Assembly (NCBI GenBank): GCA_963678675.1
Contig: OY783201.1
Coordinates: 17,291,769 to 17,355,768 of the forward strand
Reading direction: 5' to 3'
Source of the DNA: Xiphydria camelus
Taxonomy: Eukaryota; Arthropoda; Insecta; Hymenoptera; Xiphydriidae
Length of the DNA stretch: 64,000 bases
Positions within the stretch are counted from its first letter, which is position 1. Each line of letters begins with the position of its first letter. The notes beneath the pieces were generated by a model. The model did no database searches and was not told the origin of the DNA. It was given only the letters and a program-made list of their open reading frames with translations. This document shows positions 6,933 through 57,962 of this stretch, in pieces. Both the position numbers and the translations under genes were made by a program.

Positions 6933-7519
6933 CCAGTAGGTATAGTCCACCCAGCCATACCGTTCAGTCACACTACACATAAGTTTACAGTTGGTGTAAA
7001 CATACGTTTCATAGTCCAGCTAACTATACCTATATACCTATATTACGTATAATCATACAGTTGGGGTAAGAATACGTCAATCTGCTTAGGATAACCTTTC
7101 TAGTATATTAAGTAATCAGATGCCATATTGCTGCATCAAACATATCTGTTAGCAATACTTGGACTGCTAACATAGCAATGCTGTATCTCAAACACAACTA
7201 ATAGAATTACTGTAATAAAAATATTTTTAGGGGGGAATGGCTAGAAAGTCTCAGCCAGAAATGTATTGCTGTGTTAAAACTAAAGATTCTTTTCAGTGCA
7301 GGAAGGCAAGAAGATAAAAGTGGCAGTCGCAAAAATTAGATAACACATTCCAGGAAAAACCTTGAAATTGACCTGGTATAATTGGTATACGTAACTCACA
7401 CGTGATACACACATATTGTTTTATATAACATATCCCAATATACCTTGTTTCCATTCGGGTTGGCTCATGGCTTCCGATTATATAAAACTTTATATGTCCT
7501 GTATTTTATTCGATTTTAG
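6933..7519. other. Rest of hAT intron 4
   Basis: AT-rich sequence with no gene or clear repeat, ending in the splice acceptor ATTTTAG at 7513-7519. Confidence 0.5.
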
Positions 7520-8715
7520 ATGGAGATTCAGATTTCGATGAAGATGAATCAATGGCTGTTAATTTACCTTCTACATTAGATTCGAATTTGGATAACGATA
7601 ATGTAGCCCCTGAGATCGATGAAGCGGTTCCCGAGGCGATCGGTAACCTCGGCTTGATGTTGCCTAAGCACTTGCGATGTGCAAGTCACAACTTGCACTT
7701 GATTGCATCAGTTGACATAATAAAAATAATAAAGGCCTCGAGCTATCTCTGTCCAATTCACTTTGGAGCTCTGGAAAAGTGCACAGCATTATGGAATGTC
7801 CTCCGGTCTCCAAAGTCATATGAAGTAATCAAAGATTATCTGGGGGTTGCCTTACCTCGTCCAGTCGTAACACGGTGGAACTCAATGTATAATTCTCTGG
7901 AGCGTATCGTAGCATTTAAGGAAAAAGTTGTGGAGATAAGTCTTCTTGTCGGAATATCAACTGTTCTAACCGAGAATGACTTCAGATACCTCGAAGTATA
8001 CCTGAAGATCTTAAAACCTCTGGCAGCAACAATCGATCTGTTGCAAGGGGAAACTTATTGCTACTACGGGGACCTTCTCCCGTCTTTAGTATCAATGAGA
8101 AGAAAGTTAAATGTACTGCAGCAATCAAATTCGAAGATAAGTACACGGTATATGCCACTGGTCACCGGTATTATTCAGGCGCTTGACGAAAGATTTGATG
8201 TATTCTTTGCGATCGACGATGATGTCGCTGGAGCAGCGATAGCCGCAGTCAGCCATCCGCGCTTTAAGACAAGGTGGCTCGCTTCTTTTCCTGACTCAAA
8301 GCGCCGGAAAGTCGACAATCTCTTTTTAAAAGCAGTCGCAGAGGAACGACGCAGATCAGAAGAAGCGATTCCGGAAGTAAACGGGCTTGAACACCAGGTG
8401 GATGATTTCTTTGACTTTGGAGACGGTGAGGCCGCTGCTCCCAGTGCAAGGGAAACCGAGAGCGTAGAAAATGCCAAGTATATGGCAAATTCGAATACTG
8501 ACTTGGACATGTTAAACGAGTACCCAATAATAAAAAATGTATTTATCAAATTTAATACTCCGCTGCCATCATCTGCCCCTGTCGAGCGTTTATTTAGTTT
8601 TGCTACAATGATGAACTTACCGAAATGGAATCGCTTATCAGAAGAGCATTTTGAGCAACGGGTTCTGATGAAGGCCAACGCTGTTAAAGCTTCAAATAAT
8701 GCTAATTCTTTATAG
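7520..8715 (+). CDS. hAT transposase C-terminal exon with dimerisation domain
   Basis: Last exon of the hAT gene, open for 398 codons including the stop. Visible hAT motifs: LPKHLRCASHNLHLIA, TRWNSMYNSLERI, KPLAATIDLLQGE with CYYGDLLPSL, and near the end the dimerisation block TPLPSSAPVERLFSFA followed by WNRLSEEHFEQRVLMKAN. The acidic stretch GDSDFDEDES at the exon start comes directly after the splice acceptor. It has no internal stop or frameshift, which is unusual for a TE in this window and suggests the insertion is fairly young or was recently active. Confidence 0.9.
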
Positions 8716-46240: not shown

Positions 46241-46637
46241 GAGAGAGAGAGAATTACAATTTTCCTTCTTATGTTAGAGTTTCGGACTTAGAATATTTTC
46301 AACATGACGAACGGAACTTACAAAAATTTCGGTCTCCTGCATATAGGGGCTTGAAGATTTATTTGTGAATAAATGGACAAAAATTGTAATTTGTTCAATT
46401 ATTAAAACAATAAATTATTTTATTTCGAGTCTCCAAAGTTTGCTGAGCAAGTTATAAACTATACTGTTTATTAAAAAGCACAGATTATTATCGTAAATTA
46501 AAGACAATCAATTAATGTAGGATGAATAAACATTCATATAATTATTTATATATTAATACCAACCTGCATCTATGCAAGAATATTTATCAAAAGATATAAT
46601 CATAAATTTAGAAAAATGTTGAAAAAAAATAATACAA
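46241..46637. other. No gene recognised
   Basis: A short open stretch ends YRGLKIYL at 46368 but is unrecognised. The rest is AT-rich. Confidence 0.4.
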
Positions 46638-47346
46638 TCTCTCTATTATATAAAATAGTTTTCGAATAAATGCGTATACAAAACCGTGTCGCCATAAACC
46701 CCGGCGACTTCGAAACGGATGCGCGAAGCACGGACGATTGTTGGAGGAGGAGGAGGAGGAGGAGGAGGTCAAGGACGACGACGTCGAGGACGGCGACAAC
46801 GAGGATGGCGACGACAAGAACAACGACGATGAGGACGGCGACGATGAGAACAATAACGACGAGGACGGCGACGATGAGGACGGCGATGACGAGAACAACG
46901 ACGACGACGATGACGACGAGGACGAGGACCAGGACGACGACGACGAGGACGGCGACGACGAGGACGACGACGACGACGATGAGGACGGCGACGACGAGGA
47001 CGGCGAGGACGAGGACGGCGAGTACGGCGACGATGGTAACAACGACGACGAGGACGGCGACGACAAGGATGGCGATGATGAGGACGGCGACGATGAGAAC
47101 AATAACGACGAGGACGGCGACGATGAGGACGGCGATGACGAGAACAACGACGACGACGATGACGACGAGGACGAGGACCAGGACGACGACGACGAGGACG
47201 GCGACGACGAGGACGACGACGACGACGATGAGGACGGCGACGACGAGGACGGCGAGGACGAGGACGGCAAGGACGAGGACGACGAGGACGGCGACGATGG
47301 TAACAACGACGACGAGGACGGCGACGACAAGGATGGCGATGATGAG

Positions 47347-47393
<47 letters not shown>

Positions 47394-47789
47394 CGAGGAC
47401 GACGAGGACGACGAGGACAACGACGACAAGGACGGCGGCGATGAGGACGGTGACGATGAGAACAACAACGACGATGATGTCGGTGACGACGAGGACGACG
47501 TCGAGAACGGCGACTACGAGGACGGCGAGGACGGCGAGGACGAGGACGGCGACGACGAGGACGTCGATGACGAGGATGACGACGACGAGGACGACGACGA
47601 CGACGATGACGACGACGAGGACGGCAATGACAAGGACGGCGAGGATGGCGACGACGACGTATTGAACGGAGATGACAGCAACGACGTGATACTGCTGCAA
47701 AAGCTTGGGGGTGCTCCGCTATAGTGGCGCAGGGACAATAGCCCTCCGGGGGTTGACGAGCGAAGCGAGTAAGGGGCGAAGCCCCCTAG
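46638..47789 (+). mobile_element. Non-autonomous Helitron with recognisable 5' and 3' ends
   Basis: The 5' end reads TCTCTCTATTATATAAAA after a host A. The 3' end has the hairpin GGGGC-GAA-GCCCC immediately followed by CTAG (47786-47789) and then a host T. These are the hallmarks of Helitrons, which insert between A and T without target duplication. The 1.15-kb interior has no Rep/helicase and is almost filled by a GAC/GAG/GGC satellite. Confidence 0.85.
46738..47690 (+). repeat. Acidic-codon satellite inside the Helitron
   Basis: Imperfect GAC/GAG/GAT/GGC trinucleotide array, about 950 bp. It has a higher-order duplication of 249 bp: GATGAGAACAATAACGAC at 46843-46860 recurs at 47092-47109, with a long identical continuation. 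Because it lacks T-starting stop triplets, several frames on both strands stay open (Asp/Glu-rich, Thr/Arg-rich, Ser-rich, Val-rich). There is no ATG-led gene structure, so I treat it as satellite and not as a protein gene. Confidence 0.85.
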
Positions 47790-48540: not shown

Positions 48541-48575
48541 AAATATAGACTGCAGATATAGATGAAAACTTACAA

Positions 48576-49269
48576 GTGTGCACAAAAGATTTTGAAGAAA
48601 TATCTCACAATTATAAAGCAAAAGCTGTAGAATTCTGGAGAAGTGGAACTACAAAAAATCTTGCATTAAGAACTATACAAAATAGGTTCCGGAAAGTTCA
48701 ATCGATAACCCAATTAAAATGCTGGGCACATACGCTAAATAAAGGAGGAACTTGTAGAGAAAAAATAGGAAGAATCTCTACATTTGTTTTGGAAAATTTA
48801 AAAAGTGCTATTGATGCCGGTCATATTATACATGACAGAGATTTGCAAAAATGGGCTTTACAGGCGCAAAAAGATATCGGAAATGAATATTTACGTTTCA
48901 AAGCTTCACATCAGTGGGTACATAATTTTTAAAAAGCCCATAGAATTGTGAGCAGAAAAATAAATAAATTCGTTACTAAAAAACGCTTGAAGGTGCTGAC
49001 TATTTACAAAGAAAAGCTGATGCTTTTGTAGCTGAAACTAAAGAAGTAATTCAAGAGAAAGGTAGAGAGAACGTTTTTAATTCAGATCAGAGTGGGTTTC
49101 AGTTAGAAATACATTCTAGACGGACTTTAGCAGTTGAAGGACAAAAACAAATTCAATGTTTAGTACAGTCTATTACTTCAACGACCCACAGTTACACCAT
49201 TCAGCCAATGGTATCAGGTGATGGAAAGCTCATGTCACCACTTTTTATTGTACTGATTTTTTTTTTTTA
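48576..49269 (+). pseudogene. pogo/Tc1-superfamily DDE transposase fragment
   Basis: The first open frame (48576-48932) encodes KAVEFWRSGTTKNLALRTIQ and LQKWALQAQKDIG, a helix-turn-helix / CENP-B-like DNA-binding region. After a stop and a frameshift a second frame (about 48987-49269) encodes ENVFNSDQSGFQLEIHS and TTHSYTIQPMVSGDGKLMSP, matching the start of a DDE domain; the Asp of NSDQSGF is the likely first catalytic Asp. It ends at a T-run after SPLFIVL, so the second and third catalytic residues are absent. Confidence 0.75.
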
Positions 49270-49985
49270 AATTAGCCCCAAAAAATGTATAAAGTTGTTA
49301 AACAATTTTTTAAGTGTTATAATTAATCGGAACACCTCCAATTCTTTTCTCATTTTTTTCTTTGGAATGTCCTTAATATCATAATTTTTCCAATTTCATC
49401 GGAAGTGTACCCCACTGAAAAATATTAACAAATGTACACGGCTCATCACCTACCTTCTATATATATAAGCCGAAGCGCACTGCACAGCGACTGCGTACAC
49501 GCCATTTCGTGTTAATAAGTAGGTGTGAACGACTGTTAGCAAGTTGGAGACTTCGTGAGTCGGCTATTTAATTATCGCCTTGTTTTATTTCTGCCGTTGT
49601 ATCTGATTTTTTTTTCAAAGGACTAATAGTAATACCTCTCCTTCGGTAGATTTTAAAGCTCCCCAACATTCCAAGAAGTCAGCCCTGAGACCGTCTTTCG
49701 GAATTAATTCTATTACTAAATTTTCAGTAAGTCATTTCACTCTGTGAGTGACGTATTAATCTTTCCACCTAACAATCAGTGGGAAAGGTTACAATAGGAA
49801 AATATACCATTACCGTAAAACTGCATAACTGTCCATTCTCTAGATCGTAAATAGTAATGAGCATCACGTGCGATTTTTTAAATTTAGTAATACATTTTTG
49901 GACGATTTAATAAAACAACCGCGCACTATCGGCCTTGTAATATTGTAGTTCAATACGATCGATTAAAATTGATTTCGGTGCATAA
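49270..49985. other. No gene recognised
   Basis: AT-rich spacer before the left arm of the next long-TIR element. Confidence 0.4.
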
Positions 49986-49989
49986 AAAT

Positions 49990-52410
49990 AAACAGGGAAA
50001 GTAGTCCAGTCGTGAGGTATTTTGAGGTCGAAAAAACTCCTACAAAATGTTTTATTGGCTGAATCTGTTCTTTGAAAGGTCAATATGTAGAAATAGAAAA
50101 ATAATACTCGAACTCGTCCCGGAACCGATTGTTTAAACAAGTGAAGTGGACACTTTTTAGGTTTTTTACGAATAACTCGAAAAATATCAATTTTAGAATA
50201 AAAATAGTTATTATCAATTTTATTTCTTGATAAATTTTCTATAAAAACGTTTCTACACTTTTTTACACCCGAACAATAGTTTACGAGATACGGCTCTCGA
50301 ATTGCGTGAAACTTTGTGGGGCTTCCGTATTTTTAAGTAATATACACATTCAGGTTTTATCAACGTCCATATGAAGCAGTAAAATTTATTATAATATAAA
50401 ACAGGCAGAACCTTTTGATTTTTAATTAGAAATTAATCTGAAGCAAAAAATTTGGAAACATGAAGAATAAGTACTTTTTTTTGTTAAAAATACATTTAAA
50501 TCGGTTAAATAAATCTGTTGTTACATATTTCAAATTTTTCTTCTTTTGGGAGCTGGTGAACGAAGGTTTGAACCAGAATCACTCTCATCTGTACTTGCTT
50601 CTTCTTCTTCTATTTCCACGGAAAGGAATTGTTCAACATCGATGTCTATCAACTCATCGATTTCTTCTTCAATGTCAATATTGTTATCAGTATTAGAGCA
50701 GCTTTTCCCTTGGCAATTTAGACAGATCATGGAACAGTGCAGCCCAACTTTGCGGCAGCTACAGTTGCCTGTACAGCCTTTAAGACATTTACAGCAAATG
50801 GTTTGTAATAATTCTTCTGAGGCAGCAGGAGAAGTGGTGGTACAGGGTAGTAAGCTATTCACTGTTTGTCTCCAATCCCAATCGACAGGATTCAAATTAT
50901 TACCACTCCAGCTTTGGATTTGGTGATATACCCGGAGAGCATGTAGCCTTGTAGCATCTCGAGTTGGAGGTAAAGATGCCAAATTAAATGAATTTTTGGT
51001 GGAAGCTTTGCGAAACACTGAAACCGAAATTGATCCAAATACATTAGAGTGTTTTTTTTGGCTCCATATAAAGCCAAAATGAATTTTTGAGCTGCAAAAT
51101 CGAGGTGATCGGGATGTGTACAAAAAAATTGTGAGATAATTTTCTGCAGATCATTATCACTTTCTAATAACTTGACGTATTTTGTTTTACCCATTCGAAA
51201 AAATGCTAAAGTTGTGTTACAACCACTGAAAGCGTGAAAGAACAGTAGGAACTTGCGAATCGATTGAAATTGAAAACTTTCAGTTGTATATAATTTCTCT
51301 TGAGCTTTTCCTTTACTCGGTTTTAAGAAGTAGATATTTTCATGAACAGGGTCAAGCCCTCTCATAAGAACTAATAAATCGATGTCTTCACCAACAATTA
51401 TCACAGCTACGTAATTTTGTGCTATTTCTTTAGCAGAAGTAACTATCAAACTATCTGCATCTTCGTATGCTTGTTTGGTAGTAAAACCCGCACTGCCGAG
51501 TTTATCATTCAATGCTGTAATGAGTCTGCTTTTATTAGTGTCATAACTCAAAAATGTATTTTGTGAAATCGTCACTTTCATTGTTAAATCAAATATAAGA
51601 TCCACCGAGGTTTGTTTCTGCTGCCTTCTCAATCGTTCAGCGTATTTCTTGCTTTTCATACAGGCATCATGTGGGTTTCCATCGAAGACAATAATTATGC
51701 TGTGAGGTTGAAAATGCCTTTGCATGTATTGCACATACTTATTCGTGATTTCTTCGAAAGTTTTATTCTGTTGCCATAGTACCCGATGAAGAAAGTATCC
51801 ACCATCCACAACATGTATCGTTTTATTAACTGGTAATTGAGTATTGGATGGTGTGAAATATTCGTATAAAGTAGACTTCTTTGTTTTGCGCATACCTAAT
51901 TCATCAAACAATGATAAAGGATACGGTGCCAATTCATAGTCAAACTCTAAATCCTACGTTCCTTCAATATACCTGGCAGGTCAGAAACATGAATTTAGTC
52001 ATGGAAAAATGTAGCGGAGGTATCTTGTTAAAACCATATAATAAAATATTTAGCATAGAGCGTCGGATATTGCAGTGCTACCATGACTACTCGCATCTCG
52101 GGGCTGTATCTCGTATAGTTCGTACGTAAAAAAGTGTACAGAGTTTTTTGTAGAAAATTTATAATAGAGCAAAATTGATAATAACTATTTTTATTCTAAA
52201 ATTGATATTTTTCGAGTTATTCATAAAAAACCTAAGAAGCGTCCATTTCACTTGTTTAAACAATCGGTTCCGGGACGAGTTCGAATATTATTTTTTTGTT
52301 TATTAATATTGACCCCTTAAAGAACTGATTAAGACAATAAAACCTTTTGTAGCAATTTTTTCGTGATTTCTATGTTTTTTTGCTCTGACGCCTGGACTAA
52401 AGAGATATTT
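49990..52410 (-). mobile_element. Long-TIR element encoding a PIN/FEN1-like nuclease (element 1)
   Basis: Inverted arms of about 300 bp: about 49990-50305 and 52100-52410. Landmarks: CTTGTTTAAACAATCGGTTC / GAACCGATTGTTTAAACAAG and ATTTTTCGAGTTATTC / GAATAACTCGAAAAAT. The arms are moderately diverged. The only gene, on the minus strand, lies between them. No transposase of a known class is present. Element 2 (52826-56356) has the same architecture and a related gene. Confidence 0.75.
50530..51932 (-). pseudogene. PIN/FEN1-like nuclease with Cys-rich tail, one frameshift
   Basis: Two overlapping frames (51932-50892, then 51123-50530) make one protein of about 500 residues with a one-base frameshift near 51000, between QCFAK and ASTKNSFNLASLPPT. 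The first part shows spaced acidic motifs of a PIN/XPG-like nuclease: VVDGGYFLHRVLW (Asp about 43), VFDGN (84), EDADSLIV (158-160), GEDIDLLVL (182-185). The HAFSGCNTT motif has Asn where related proteins have Asp (GCDTT). Then come LPPTRDATRLHALRVYHQIQ and DWDWR. A Cys-rich CXC/tesmin-like block (CCKCLKGC, CSCRKVGLHC, CLNCQGKSC) is followed by an acidic stretch and a basic end (APKRRKI). I remember such proteins only as uncharacterised invertebrate proteins; biochemical activity is inferred. No ATG precedes 51932; Met at about 51893 is a likely start. Confidence 0.78.
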
Positions 52411-52825
52411 CGGGACTATGTACTGATTGATTTCTGCCAATTTTGCCAACATACAATAATGTTGAAAGACGCTCCTTAAAATACCATTCCCTTTCGAGTC
52501 TGAACTAGTCTAAATAGTTTTGCCGTGTCCCTAATGTTCGCTCTTTTGCATGAGAGTTGTGTTTCGTTTCTAGTAGAGTTTAGTTGAAGATCGGTCCCTT
52601 TTCGAGTTTTCTGTGAACCCTGTGGCTCTCTGGCGTTTCGTAATGCCTAGCGCCCAAGTTTTTTAGTCTTGAGCGGACCGACACGGCGAAGGTGTGTATT
52701 TCCTGCAGGGAAGAAGATTTCGCGTCACGATATATTACTTTCAACAAATACATCACAAAAAGTTAGTACTTTCAATATTATATTGGATATCTTGAAGTAA
52801 ATATGCACGAAACGTATAAGAATAT
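52411..52825. other. Spacer between the two PIN-nuclease elements
   Basis: No gene or clear repeat. Confidence 0.4.
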
Positions 52826-53165
52826 TTTAGTTCAGGGAAATAAGACTTCCTCTGCGGAATAAGAGAAAGCAAGCTGGATTTTTGCAGAGATCTCCGTTTT
52901 GATGTTCTAATGAAGCACCAAAAAGTCTCATATACTCACCCTTGTGCGTCTCGAGATATCAAAGGTCAAAGGTCATGAAAATCAGTTTTTTGCGAAAATC
53001 TCGCTTCCGGTTAGTCTGATGTCTTAAGAAGTTTTAACAAAATTTACGTAAAACAGCATTCTCTACAAGTTTAATTCTATACATTTTTTTCTACGATCAA
53101 CCGTTTTCGAGATATAGCGTGAAGAAGCGGGAGCGCGCATTTTTGAATAGGTAATACTGTATATA

Positions 53166-53400
53166 CTGCCCAACTATGGAAAAAGGCAGTAACTAGCAAA
53201 ACGAATCGAAGTGCGTTTCTTGATACCATTGAATATCTTGAATTACTTTGTACCCAAATTTTGTACCCTTTCGTAGTGTTAAAGGTAGATTTTGTTAGTA
53301 ATCTGTCTTGGAAACCCTTCGGCAAAAGGCATCGAAGTTAAAGTTGATTTTCCACAAATTTGTCGGTTAGCAATTACTGCCTTTCTCCATAGTTGGGCAG
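53166..53400. mobile_element. 235-bp MITE with TATA duplication
   Basis: TIR CTGCCCAACTATGGA...CCATAGTTGGGCAG, with TATA at 53162-53165 and 53401-53404. The other arm of element 2 carries the uninterrupted site (AGCAGTATATACAG, about 56004-56017). Confidence 0.88.
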
Positions 53401-53639
53401 TATACTGCTTAGCTATAACTATAAATGCACTTTTCTTAGTAGTTATACTAAAAAATCGAATTCCTATTATTATTTCAGTTAAAAGTTTGTTCATTTATAA
53501 AAAGAATATAATAAATAATTAATAACAAAAAATGCATCCTTTTCTGCACCACTTTTGAAGTAGAATGCAAGGCGCATTTTTTTAGACATGGTTTCTGAAC
53601 AGTAACCGATTCACGTATTTCGCAATTGCCAGCGTGCTT

Positions 53640-53780
53640 TATGTTTCCTCTTCTTCGTCCTCGTCTTCCTCAGGTTCCTCAAGTAGTTCTACCACAATAT
53701 TGTTTTCATCATCACACGCTTCCGCTGTATCTAATTGCAAAATCTCTTCAGGCTCATGGCCACTGAAGTCTTCAATCTAA
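53640..53780 (-). pseudogene. Inverted copy of nuclease C-terminus in the left arm
   Basis: On the minus strand this encodes EDFSGHEPEEILQLDTAEA, then an acidic run (EEPEEDEDEEEET) and a stop, without interruption. The right-arm version in the main gene (about 55566-55692) has a small deletion that introduces an early stop, so the left-arm copy keeps the better version of the C-terminus. Confidence 0.8.
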
Positions 53781-53789
53781 GTTCTAACA

Positions 53790-55692
53790 TAATTGTTATA
53801 TTTGACGGTTAGTCAGACAATTCTAAAAATATAAAAGCAATGGAGCAATTAAGACGAACTACTGCACTGTCTACATCTTATGAAGTTCGCTTTGATGCAA
53901 CAATGAATGTGCCAATCAGCCAAGAAAAGTTCTTATCAAACCGATGCAACAAAAACATTTTTATTGAAATGCTTATTGAACAACTACAAGCTGCTAACAT
54001 CGCTACAATATAAGCCAAGGATGATGCGGATGTCCTAATCATCGAAACAGCCATCGAAGTATCGGAAAGAGAAAGAACCGCCGTCATCAATAGAGAAGAC
54101 ATTGATTTGCTTGTTCTTTTAGGGGGGGGGGGTCTAAAAATCAATTTTTTAAATTGCCTTTTCTTATAGTAAAACATTTAAAGAATGTTGCTTCCAAATT
54201 TCAAGTCAATCGGAGCAGAACTCTCAGTCATAGATCTTTAAGTCTCCGCTCCTCTAATACTGCGGAGCAGTAAGAACTCGGCGCTTTAAACGCTTGTTTC
54301 TCGAGAGAGAAACCAAGTTTTAAAAGTCCGTGGACATCGTCATTTAAAAACTACTGCCCCGATTCTTTTCCAATTTTGTACACACTTTCTACATAAAAAA
54401 TACCATACCCCTACGTTTTTCTTTTTCTTTTTTTGTTGCATTAAGGTGGTTTTACAGCAACAAAATGACTGATTTTTTCGTGAAAAATCGCAATTTTTAC
54501 TTCAAACAACCACCAAAAATTTAAAAATGGAAAAAAAATTAAAGAAAAACGTAGAGGTCTAGAAAAACATCTGTTTTTTAACTAAATTGCTTTGATTTTT
54601 TGATTTGAGATAGTTCTACACGGAAATATAGTGTCCACCGCAAATCATCTTTTCTAAAACGCGTCCTCGAAAATGCTTCGTCACCGGCTTATTTCTCAAT
54701 ATTTTTCTACAAAAAAATTACAAAATGTTCGAATGATGCTTTGTAATATGCGAAACATTAGAATATATCTGCTTCAACAATAGCTCTTAAAAAAATTCGT
54801 AAAAATAGAGTTATTTTCCACGCGTTAGACCCTACCCCCCCCCCCCCCCCCCCTCTTAATAGGACGAACTCAGTCACATCAGCGACAAATTTTCGTAAAG
54901 AAAATTGGCAAGGGTACTACATCAACACCAATTTATTCATCTAAAAGTTTCGACAAATATCCTCTTTGCAAAGAACATATTTTGTTTTTGCCTGCCTTCA
55001 CTGAATGCGACCCTACCTCTGCACTATTCAATAAAGGAAAACTTCAGATTATGAAAATGTTTGAGAAACATCCCAATTTGAATCGCTCGGCTCAGATATT
55101 TCAAGAAGAAAACTGCCCGCCAGATACATTATTTGAAAACGGAAAGCGTTTTCTATTAGCCATGTATAGTGCTCCAAAAGAAGAAGTAAACATTGATAAC
55201 TTTAGGTATACCCATTTCATCAAATCAACACGATTTAATAAACTAGTTAATTTGTCATCTCTTCCACCTATCAGTGAAGCAGTTCAACAGCATATCTACC
55301 GGGTCTACTACCAAATACAGATTTGGCTAGGAAAAAATCTACAACCCGAAGAATGGGGTTGGGATATAAAAAACGAGATGCTCTAGAGCCGAAAACAACA
55401 CTATTGCCACCTGCCCCAGATGAACTATTAAACACAATCTTCTGCAATTGTAAAAAAAGGATGTGGTGCGCAGTGTGGATGTAGAAAAGTAGGACTACCA
55501 TGCTATACAGTTTGTGGTTAGTGTCACGGACAGGCATGCCTGAATCCTTCCTCAGAATTGCAAGACATTGAAAACTTCAGTGGCCATGAGCCTGAAGAGA
55601 TTTTGCAATTAGATACAGCGGAAGCGTATGACGATGAAGACAAAACTACTTAAGGAACCTGAAGAAGACGAGGACGAAGAAGAGGAAACATA
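53790..55692 (+). pseudogene. PIN/FEN1-like nuclease, second copy, truncated and interrupted
   Basis: Homologous to the gene at 50530-51932. Starts without an N-terminus at IVIFDG, followed by TAG at 53810-53812. It continues VPISQEKFLSNRCNKNIF, KDDADVLIIETAI and REDIDLLVLL. Then about 740 bp of foreign sequence (54122-54863) interrupts it. It resumes at GRTQSHQRQIF and reads FLPAFTECDPTSALFNKGK, SSLPPISEAVQQHIYRVYYQ, WGWD, then after a stop and shift GCGAQCGCRKVGLPC and CHGQACLN, and the acidic end. Here the ECDPTSA Asp is kept (Asn in element 1), while the GEDID Gly is Arg. The gene is clearly dead. Confidence 0.8.
54122..54863. mobile_element. Insertion in the nuclease gene bounded by G-run and C-run
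   Basis: Begins with ten G followed by TCTAAAAATC and ends ...TTAGACCCTA followed by a long C-run, consistent with inverted termini GGGGGGGTCTAA-type. It separates LLVLL from GRTQSHQRQIF of the nuclease frame. The interior is AT-rich with no gene. Confidence 0.6.
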
Positions 55693-56356
55693 AAGCACGC
55701 CGGCAACTGCGAAAGACGTGAATCGGTTACTGTTCAGAAACTTTGGTTAATATCGAAAACATGGATTAGGCCAGTAGGGTAAACATGGATTAGGGTAGTA
55801 GGTACATGTGGTTGTAGTAACATATCTTAAAAAAACGCGCCTTCCATTGTACTTCAAAAGTAGTGCGGAAAAGGATGCATTATTTGTTATGAATTATTTT
55901 TATATTTTTTTTATAAATGAACAAACTTTTAATTGAAACAATAATAGGAATTCAATTTTTTAGTAACTACTAAGAAAAGTGCATTTATAGTTATAGCTAA
56001 GCAGTATATACAGTATTACCTATTCAAAAATGCGCGCTCCCGCTTCTTCACGGTATATCTCGAAAACGGTTGATCGTACAAAAAATGTATATAATCAAAC
56101 TTGTAGAGAATACTGTTTTACGTAAATTTTGTTCAAACTTCTTAAGATATCAGACTAGCCGGAAGCGAGATTTTCGCAAAAACTGATTTTCATGACCTTT
56201 GACCTTCGATATCTCGAGACGCACAAGGGTGAGCATTTGAGACTTTTTGATGCTTCATTAGAATATCAAAACGAAGATCTCTGCAAAAATTTAGCTTGCT
56301 TTCTCTCATTCCGCACACAGATAGGGTTTTTATATACCTTATTTCCCTGGACTAAC

Positions 56357-57172
56357 TTGTTACGCGTCGTTATCACTTCACTTATATTCCCAGCATAGCT
56401 CGGTCGTTCGCAAGAGCCTCTTCGATGTCCCGGAGCTCCCGAGGCGGCTTCTCGCGAGGGTCGCTCGTCCGGTGTCTCTCTGCTGGCCTTTGCGGTTCTT
56501 CGTCAACCGACGCTACGTAGTGGCGGCCATGATGGCGTTCGTGCCACGAGGGAACTCGACACGGCAGACTTCGTAATCGTCAAATAACTCCTAAACGCCG
56601 GCCTCGCCGCACTTCCACTTCACTCAGTGATGCTTCGCACTGCTCCGCGAACACCACCATGCACTTTTTATCGCACTCACTCGTGAAAAACCCGACTAAA
56701 GTTCCGAATTTTGCAGGAGCGATCCGCCACACGTTGCACTGCTCGACCACCTAACCTTTAAATTTAATTACGAACACGTTCCCTGCGTATTAAAATGATT
56801 GAATTAACCCCTGTACTAAAATCTTGAAATTTTCGTAAAACTATGTTGGCGTGCCGCGGGAGCCGCGTGATCCTCCCAGGGGACACAGCCACCTCACGCG
56901 AGAGCCGCTTGTTCCGCAGCGAACGTGTTAACAATTTTGTGAAGACAGTGAAGTTACCGATATTCATGGTCGGTAAATGTATGATGTGTGCATGTCGAAA
57001 AGGCACGGTGTCTGCACTGAGTGTAAACACTGTGTCTTCACGCCGTGAACCACTAAGTGTGTCCACTGTGTAGCCACAGTGCTTTTAGCTTGTGTACGCC
57101 ACGCGATCATGCCACGGTGAGACCACACTGATGCCACTACGTGGCAGCACTGCGTGCGGCTAGCGTGTGAAT
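56357..57172. other. GC-richer region, no gene recognised
   Basis: 56400-56760 is GC-rich without a supported reading frame. From about 57020, CACTGTG-type repeats appear that belong to the right end of a CCCCGATAGC-type element. Confidence 0.4.
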
Positions 57173-57191
57173 CCACGCTTTGCTATCGGGG
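57020..57191. mobile_element. Lone right end of a CCCCGATAGC-type element
   Basis: Ends CACGCTTTGCTATCGGGG, as in the elements ending at 6572 and 40816, and is preceded by CACTGTG and CCACAGTG subterminal repeats. The matching left end was not found nearby. Confidence 0.6.
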
Positions 57192-57639
57192 AAGTGATGC
57201 ACAGTGGGTTTCCAAAAACTGATTGGTTTACGTGCATTTATTTTCAAGTTAATCTATAAGTTACAGAATTTTTTTCTGTAGTCACATTGAAACTGTCATT
57301 CTCCTGGTAAGTAATAAGTAGTTCTAGTGAATATTGAAATTATATTAGGTTTGTTCCTGCAGGAGTCAGAGACTGTCAGCGGACGTCAGGCGCATGCGCA
57401 TTAAGTTTCTATGCGTTCCAGCAAGAAGTACGTGACAGTCACTGATTCCAAATCCGCTGTTCCAGCAGAAGTCAGACGAATTTGCTGACAGTCAGAAAAG
57501 TTTGCGGATTGTCAGGAAACTTTTAGTCCGACGCAGGCGTACTAGCTGCTCGTACGAATGAGGGCGGGTTTTACAAACACAGTATAAACGCGGTATAGCG
57601 CTATACTGAGAATAACCAGCACGCAAGCGTTTTACACAA

Positions 57640-57962
57640 GTACCATATGTCCGCGATCAAAGCACCCATAGCAAAATTGCGAGTTTTGCATGAGCACCCC
57701 TGTGAGTCTCCTCGTCCAATAGAATCACCGGAGAAGCGTGATGCGCATGCGTAGTCCACGCCATTGTTGGCCTGTCAGCAAATTCAGATCGGTTATCGAA
57801 ATAACCAATCTGAACACTCTTGCTGACACGCCAGCACTCGCGGATGACTACGCATGCACATCACGCTTCTCCGGTGATTCTATTGGACGAGGAGACCCAC
57901 AGGGGTGCTCATGCAAAACTCGCAATTTTGCTATGGGTGCTTTGATCGCGGACATATGGTAT
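57640..57962. mobile_element. Foldback MITE, about 155-bp arms
   Basis: Arms about 57643-57800 and 57806-57962, ending ACCATATGTCCGCGATCAAA and the inverse, with almost no spacer. Very few mismatches. Confidence 0.9.

Follow-up and report, generated by a model that had tools for sequence, protein, structure and literature searches.

Neighbouring Nuclease-Encoding Elements of Xiphydria camelus as Probable Internally Deleted Members of a DDE–Nuclease Transposon Group

Introduction

Kojima is said to have distinguished AcademX in 2020 as a lineage of the Academ superfamily of DNA transposons; its nuclease is presumably XPG, and the target-site duplication (TSD) of the P element is 8 bp long. In PMC10045372, AcademX is described as having a DDD/E transposase, an encoded nuclease and a TSD of 3 or 4 bp, and AcademH as having a helicase and a TSD of 9–10 bp. 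The mean length of Academ elements is 5,565 bp (PMC10294476), and the signature C/DxxH is given for the P superfamily in PMC9587614. Here we analyse two adjacent elements, A and B, in a 64,000-nucleotide stretch of the X. camelus genome (contig OY783201.1, positions 17,291,769 to 17,355,768), hereafter the window. A sequence-only reading had suggested that a nuclease, their only gene, may be the mobility protein or the cargo of a poorly described transposon group. We consider it very probable that both elements are defective copies, shortened by internal deletion, within a group of cut-and-paste transposons encoding a DDE–nuclease fusion, most likely AcademX. The kind of DNA transposon to which they belong would then most likely have been described already, with the nuclease being the back half of the normal transposase protein.

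Structure of Elements A and B

Both elements (Table 1) start with 5'-TAGTYCAG and finish with its complement; the exact ends are TAGTCCAG / CTGGACTA in A and TAGTTCAG / CTGGACTA in B. They encode the same type of protein in opposite orientations, as had been noted earlier. Comparison of A and B as DNA revealed no match at E <= 1e-3 (blastn), and the identity of their proteins is 32–40%; therefore, they represent two different families. Positions 49000–57500 were searched by tblastn with the 950 N-terminal residues taken from each of 83 long relatives; only the nuclease region and chance matches were found, in agreement with the earlier statement that neither element contains a transposase gene. 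It appears that the first ~1,000 residues of the protein have been lost from both.

Table 1. Coordinates of elements A and B and their parts in the window.
Feature	Position	Strand	Basis
TSD AAG left of A	49999..50001	.	
Element A, internally deleted transposon copy	50002..52399 (2,398 bp)	gene on -	terminal sequences, arms
A left terminal inverted repeat (TIR), 3' side of gene	50002..50294	+	blastn, alignment
A second frame, C-terminal part: LPPT..RVYHQ region, Cys-rich tail, acidic and basic end	50530..51150	-	
A Cys-rich CXC-like block	50692..50796	-	read from frame translation
A frame, 353 residues, FEN1/EXO1-like nuclease domain	50892..51953	-	
A right TIR, 5' side of gene	52103..52399	-	blastn, alignment
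TSD AAG right of A	52400..52402	.	
Element B, internally deleted and rearranged copy, family other than A's	52828..56354 (3,527 bp)	gene on +	
B left arm: TIR and inverted copy of the reading frame 3' end, nested miniature inverted-repeat transposable element (MITE) inside	52828..53776	+	
MITE in B left arm, 31-nt TIRs, TA target	53163..53403	.	alignment
B nuclease fragment 1, FDG motif to DLLVLL, in-frame stops	53774..54106	+	tblastn
Insertion of ~0.73 kb in B frame, poly-G / poly-C ends, approximate boundaries	54118..54859	.	
B nuclease fragment 2 and Cys-rich C-terminal part	54859..55644	+	tblastn
B right arm: reading frame 3' end and TIR	55567..56354	-	

The arms of A are identical in 260 of 302 aligned columns (blastn E 5e-83), and its flanks carry a 3-bp duplication, equal 3-mers being expected by chance at about 0.02 in the window. 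The reading frame is broken, being 5'-truncated and containing a frame change near 51,000; the 353-residue part begins at about residue 1,005–1,016 of the ~1,500-residue full-length protein. In the nuclease motif GCNTT, Asn replaces the Asp present in 59 of the 64 relatives that have a letter at this position. No Pfam model was found for the CXC-like block (CCKCLKGCTGNCSCRKVGLHCSMICLNCQGKSCSN) at E <= 1 apart from one weak chance match, and relatives carry the name "Tesmin/TSO1-like CXC domain-containing".

In B, the arms are identical in 665 of 710 aligned columns. Within the left arm, positions 53591–53776 repeat, in inverted orientation, the 3' end of the element's own frame (55567–55741), and the ~0.9 kb left arm is therefore a rearranged arm rather than an ordinary TIR. 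The two elements with long inverted repeats proposed earlier are both present, and their reading as TIR-bounded DNA transposons is upheld, but the long arms of B are partly an inverted duplication. The right arm represents an empty site for the MITE nested in the left one. The first nuclease fragment starts at residue ~1,088–1,096 of long relatives, and the frame is broken by in-frame stops. B carries two nested insertions, of which the one of ~0.73 kb sits within the frame directly after DLLVLL.

Full-Length Copies in the X. camelus Genome

A search of the genome (357 Mb, 38 contigs) revealed at least 121 matches to the nuclease of A and at least 112 matches to the DDE half, several of each located in frames of more than 1,300 residues. 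Full-length copies span 5.6–6.5 kb. One of them (C28; 6,486 bp, ends TAGGCCAGTCG, GTA duplication) contains a single frame of 1,498 residues from the first Met with D, D, E and the nuclease and Cys motifs, and another (C29; 5,986 bp, flanked by the 4-bp duplication TTCA) combines both halves in one frame of 1,505 residues. A third copy, C17 (L035+L037+L004; 5,575 bp, CTG duplication), has arms 90–94% identical to those of A and encodes the DDE half. A full-length member of A's own TIR family thus carries the DDE half, and a transposase in such members was what the sequence-only reading had named as refuting its proposal that the nuclease may be the mobility protein or cargo.

TSDs were counted in eight copies with both ends in one locus, including A, and in three pieced copies, with B counted apart and L017 excluded owing to three mismatches at its right end. 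A 3-bp duplication was present in six of the eight, and all three pieced copies have a duplication, giving 9/11 in total. No TIR was seen in L031, the 5' side of L009.

The Fused DDE–Nuclease Protein

The full-length protein comprises ~1,400–1,500 residues and, judging from the sequence and predicted fold, contains in order CxxC..HxxC, the DDE part, the nuclease, and a Cys-rich tail. In the predicted model, the DDE part is RNase H-like with a helical insertion, while the nuclease has a FEN1/EXO1 fold and, in the alignment, the conserved acidic residues of the XPG/FEN1 superfamily; the fold comparison thus upheld the earlier suggestion of a PIN/FEN1-like enzyme, here of the FEN1/XPG type. Among 108 new long relatives scored by pattern, the DDE triad was found in 103, six nuclease Asp in 96, and both in 94; regular expressions detected the CXC pattern in 65 (in 58 together with the triad and six Asp) and the N-terminal CxxC..HxxC in 78. 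For the 103 proteins covering both domains, DDE and nuclease identities correlated with r 0.76, a value reached in 0/999 shuffles, and 67 had the same nearest neighbour by either domain. This correlation indicates that the two halves have travelled together.

The fused protein recurs in many arthropods, one octocoral, and one rust fungus, and relatives were absent from the viral contigs, prokaryote genome contigs, and phage records searched. One could suppose that host nuclease genes were caught between unrelated inverted repeats, by chance or through foldback, and the long arms of B, which are partly an inverted duplication, would fit this. However, many other loci carry the TIRs of A together with 3-bp TSDs, which refutes such an origin, and the same fused protein underlies the numerous genome matches and the wide taxonomic distribution; we find this explanation scarcely credible.

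Among the window frames, the only Pfam match was 5_3_exonuc_N in the A nuclease (E 3e-4, below the cut-off). A search of PDB sequences with the A frame yielded one chance match only, the nuclease profile found EXO1 at E 0.5, and the long profile found nothing. The identity to FEN1, EXO1, and XPG nucleases is 13–14%; unlike them, the nuclease analysed here is fused to a transposase and has a Cys-rich tail.

Comparison with Known Transposons

The fused DDE and nuclease parts and the TSD of 3–4 bp match the published description of AcademX, and the full-length copies are close to the Academ mean length; by architecture and TSD, AcademX is therefore the most likely assignment of the group, from which A and B differ as deleted copies without the transposase half. 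If this assignment holds, AcademH belongs to the same superfamily, but differs by its helicase and longer TSD. Membership in AcademH itself was considered and rejected, given the 3–4 bp TSD and the lack of matches to helicase models in six long relatives.

Several observations weigh against the AcademX assignment. It was drawn from published descriptions rather than from comparison with Academ sequences, and the passage on AcademX in PMC10045372 says "nuclease" and names no fold. The match of the DDE half to the Pfam family DUF6589 stays below the cut-off, and this family is named in no paper of the literature searched. No transposase appeared in the Foldseek top 50 for the long model, and the row for the P-element transposase (PDB 6pe2), ranked 43 in the fold listing, has a Z score of a size that can arise by chance among helical folds. 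The C17 copy is itself broken by stops in the DDE half. As regards target duplications, which had been suggested as a check, A is flanked by AAG, but the flanks of B (ATTT/ACTT) contain no exact TSD, nor do L005 and L018 (2/11 copies).

An alternative is a separate, unnamed DDE superfamily, closer to P elements than to Academ and likewise fused to a FEN1-like nuclease: apart from the P-element enzyme, the fold listing contains no solved transposase, Pfam gives DUF6589 as uncharacterised, and the likeness to Academ comes from descriptions. Nevertheless, the P-element row points to a shared fold only, with no sequence match in the PDB search; no FEN1-like domain is named for that transposase, the 8-bp TSD of the P element differs from the 3–4 bp seen here, and the C/DxxH signature is not obvious, since the conserved His that follows the second Asp lies, by eye, in GGFH. 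The combination of DDE and nuclease, the 3–4 bp TSD, and the length of ~5.6 kb are all published features of AcademX or Academ. A separate superfamily is therefore, in our view, unlikely.

The Deleted Subfamily of A

Loci of the A subfamily were located with a nuclease query, placing nuclease-less copies outside the sample. Among 25 nuclease-bearing loci, the DDE half lies within 1.5 kb of the match in five and is missing at this distance from 20. The deleted copies bear their own 3-bp TSDs, and all subfamily copies except L009 and L016 are ~91–97% identical to A at the DNA level. An identical 274-base spacing between A positions 396 and 456 was found in L006, L010, L014, and L020, and a similar one in L012, L019, L025, L029, and L030; the shared spacing is as expected if a single deleted founder multiplied.

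With L026, L009, and L016 excluded, the ratio of nonsynonymous to synonymous substitution rates (dN/dS) was 0.90 for the 153 pairs formed by 18 deleted copies, 1.16 for the 17 pairs of A with the other deleted copies, 0.79 for 72 pairs of a deleted with a full-length copy, and 1.29 for the 6 pairs formed by four full-length copies. The subfamily is decayed, and the ratio does not discriminate, because the nuclease is visibly maintained neither in the deleted copies nor in the few full-length ones.

The multiplication of copies that kept the nuclease half, each with its own TSD, could suggest nuclease-only elements in which the nuclease suffices for mobility or is kept by selection as cargo. 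For the group as a whole, this view is refuted by full-length copies with the same TIRs encoding the DDE half; the ratio among deleted copies also argues against it, though full-length copies are not set apart in this respect, and we regard it as very improbable. Somewhat less improbable, but still doubtful, is a composite alternative: either a transposase-less, nuclease-retaining subfamily was amplified, with its FEN1-like enzyme helping same-end elements in trans, or the DDE–nuclease group forms a superfamily distinct from Academ.

Other Features of the Window

At 57641–57961 lies an inverted repeat whose 116-nt arms are 98% complementary and separated by an 89-nt spacer. The fragment at 48549–48932 has a weak match to a Tc5-type transposase DNA-binding domain (PF03221, E 0.0043, below the cut-off), and in a long low-complexity tract at 46600–47720 both strands have several open frames. 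A 409-residue frame at 7486–8715 has no Pfam match at E <= 0.01; by eye, it resembles the end of a hAT-type transposase.

Conclusions

In the proposed group, cutting and joining of the element ends is most likely the work of the DDE part. The nuclease would probably act on strands with flaps or branches, trimming or cutting them at these ends or in the gaps that remain after joining; the literature searched contained no account of the role of the nuclease in these elements. A would come from a deletion subfamily that multiplied, the transposase presumably being supplied by full-length copies with the same ends. Insect TIR elements that appear to encode only a nuclease can thus derive by deletion from a transposase–nuclease fusion, and the complete copies, which have open frames, TIRs, and TSDs, provide material for testing what a FEN1-like nuclease contributes to DNA transposition.
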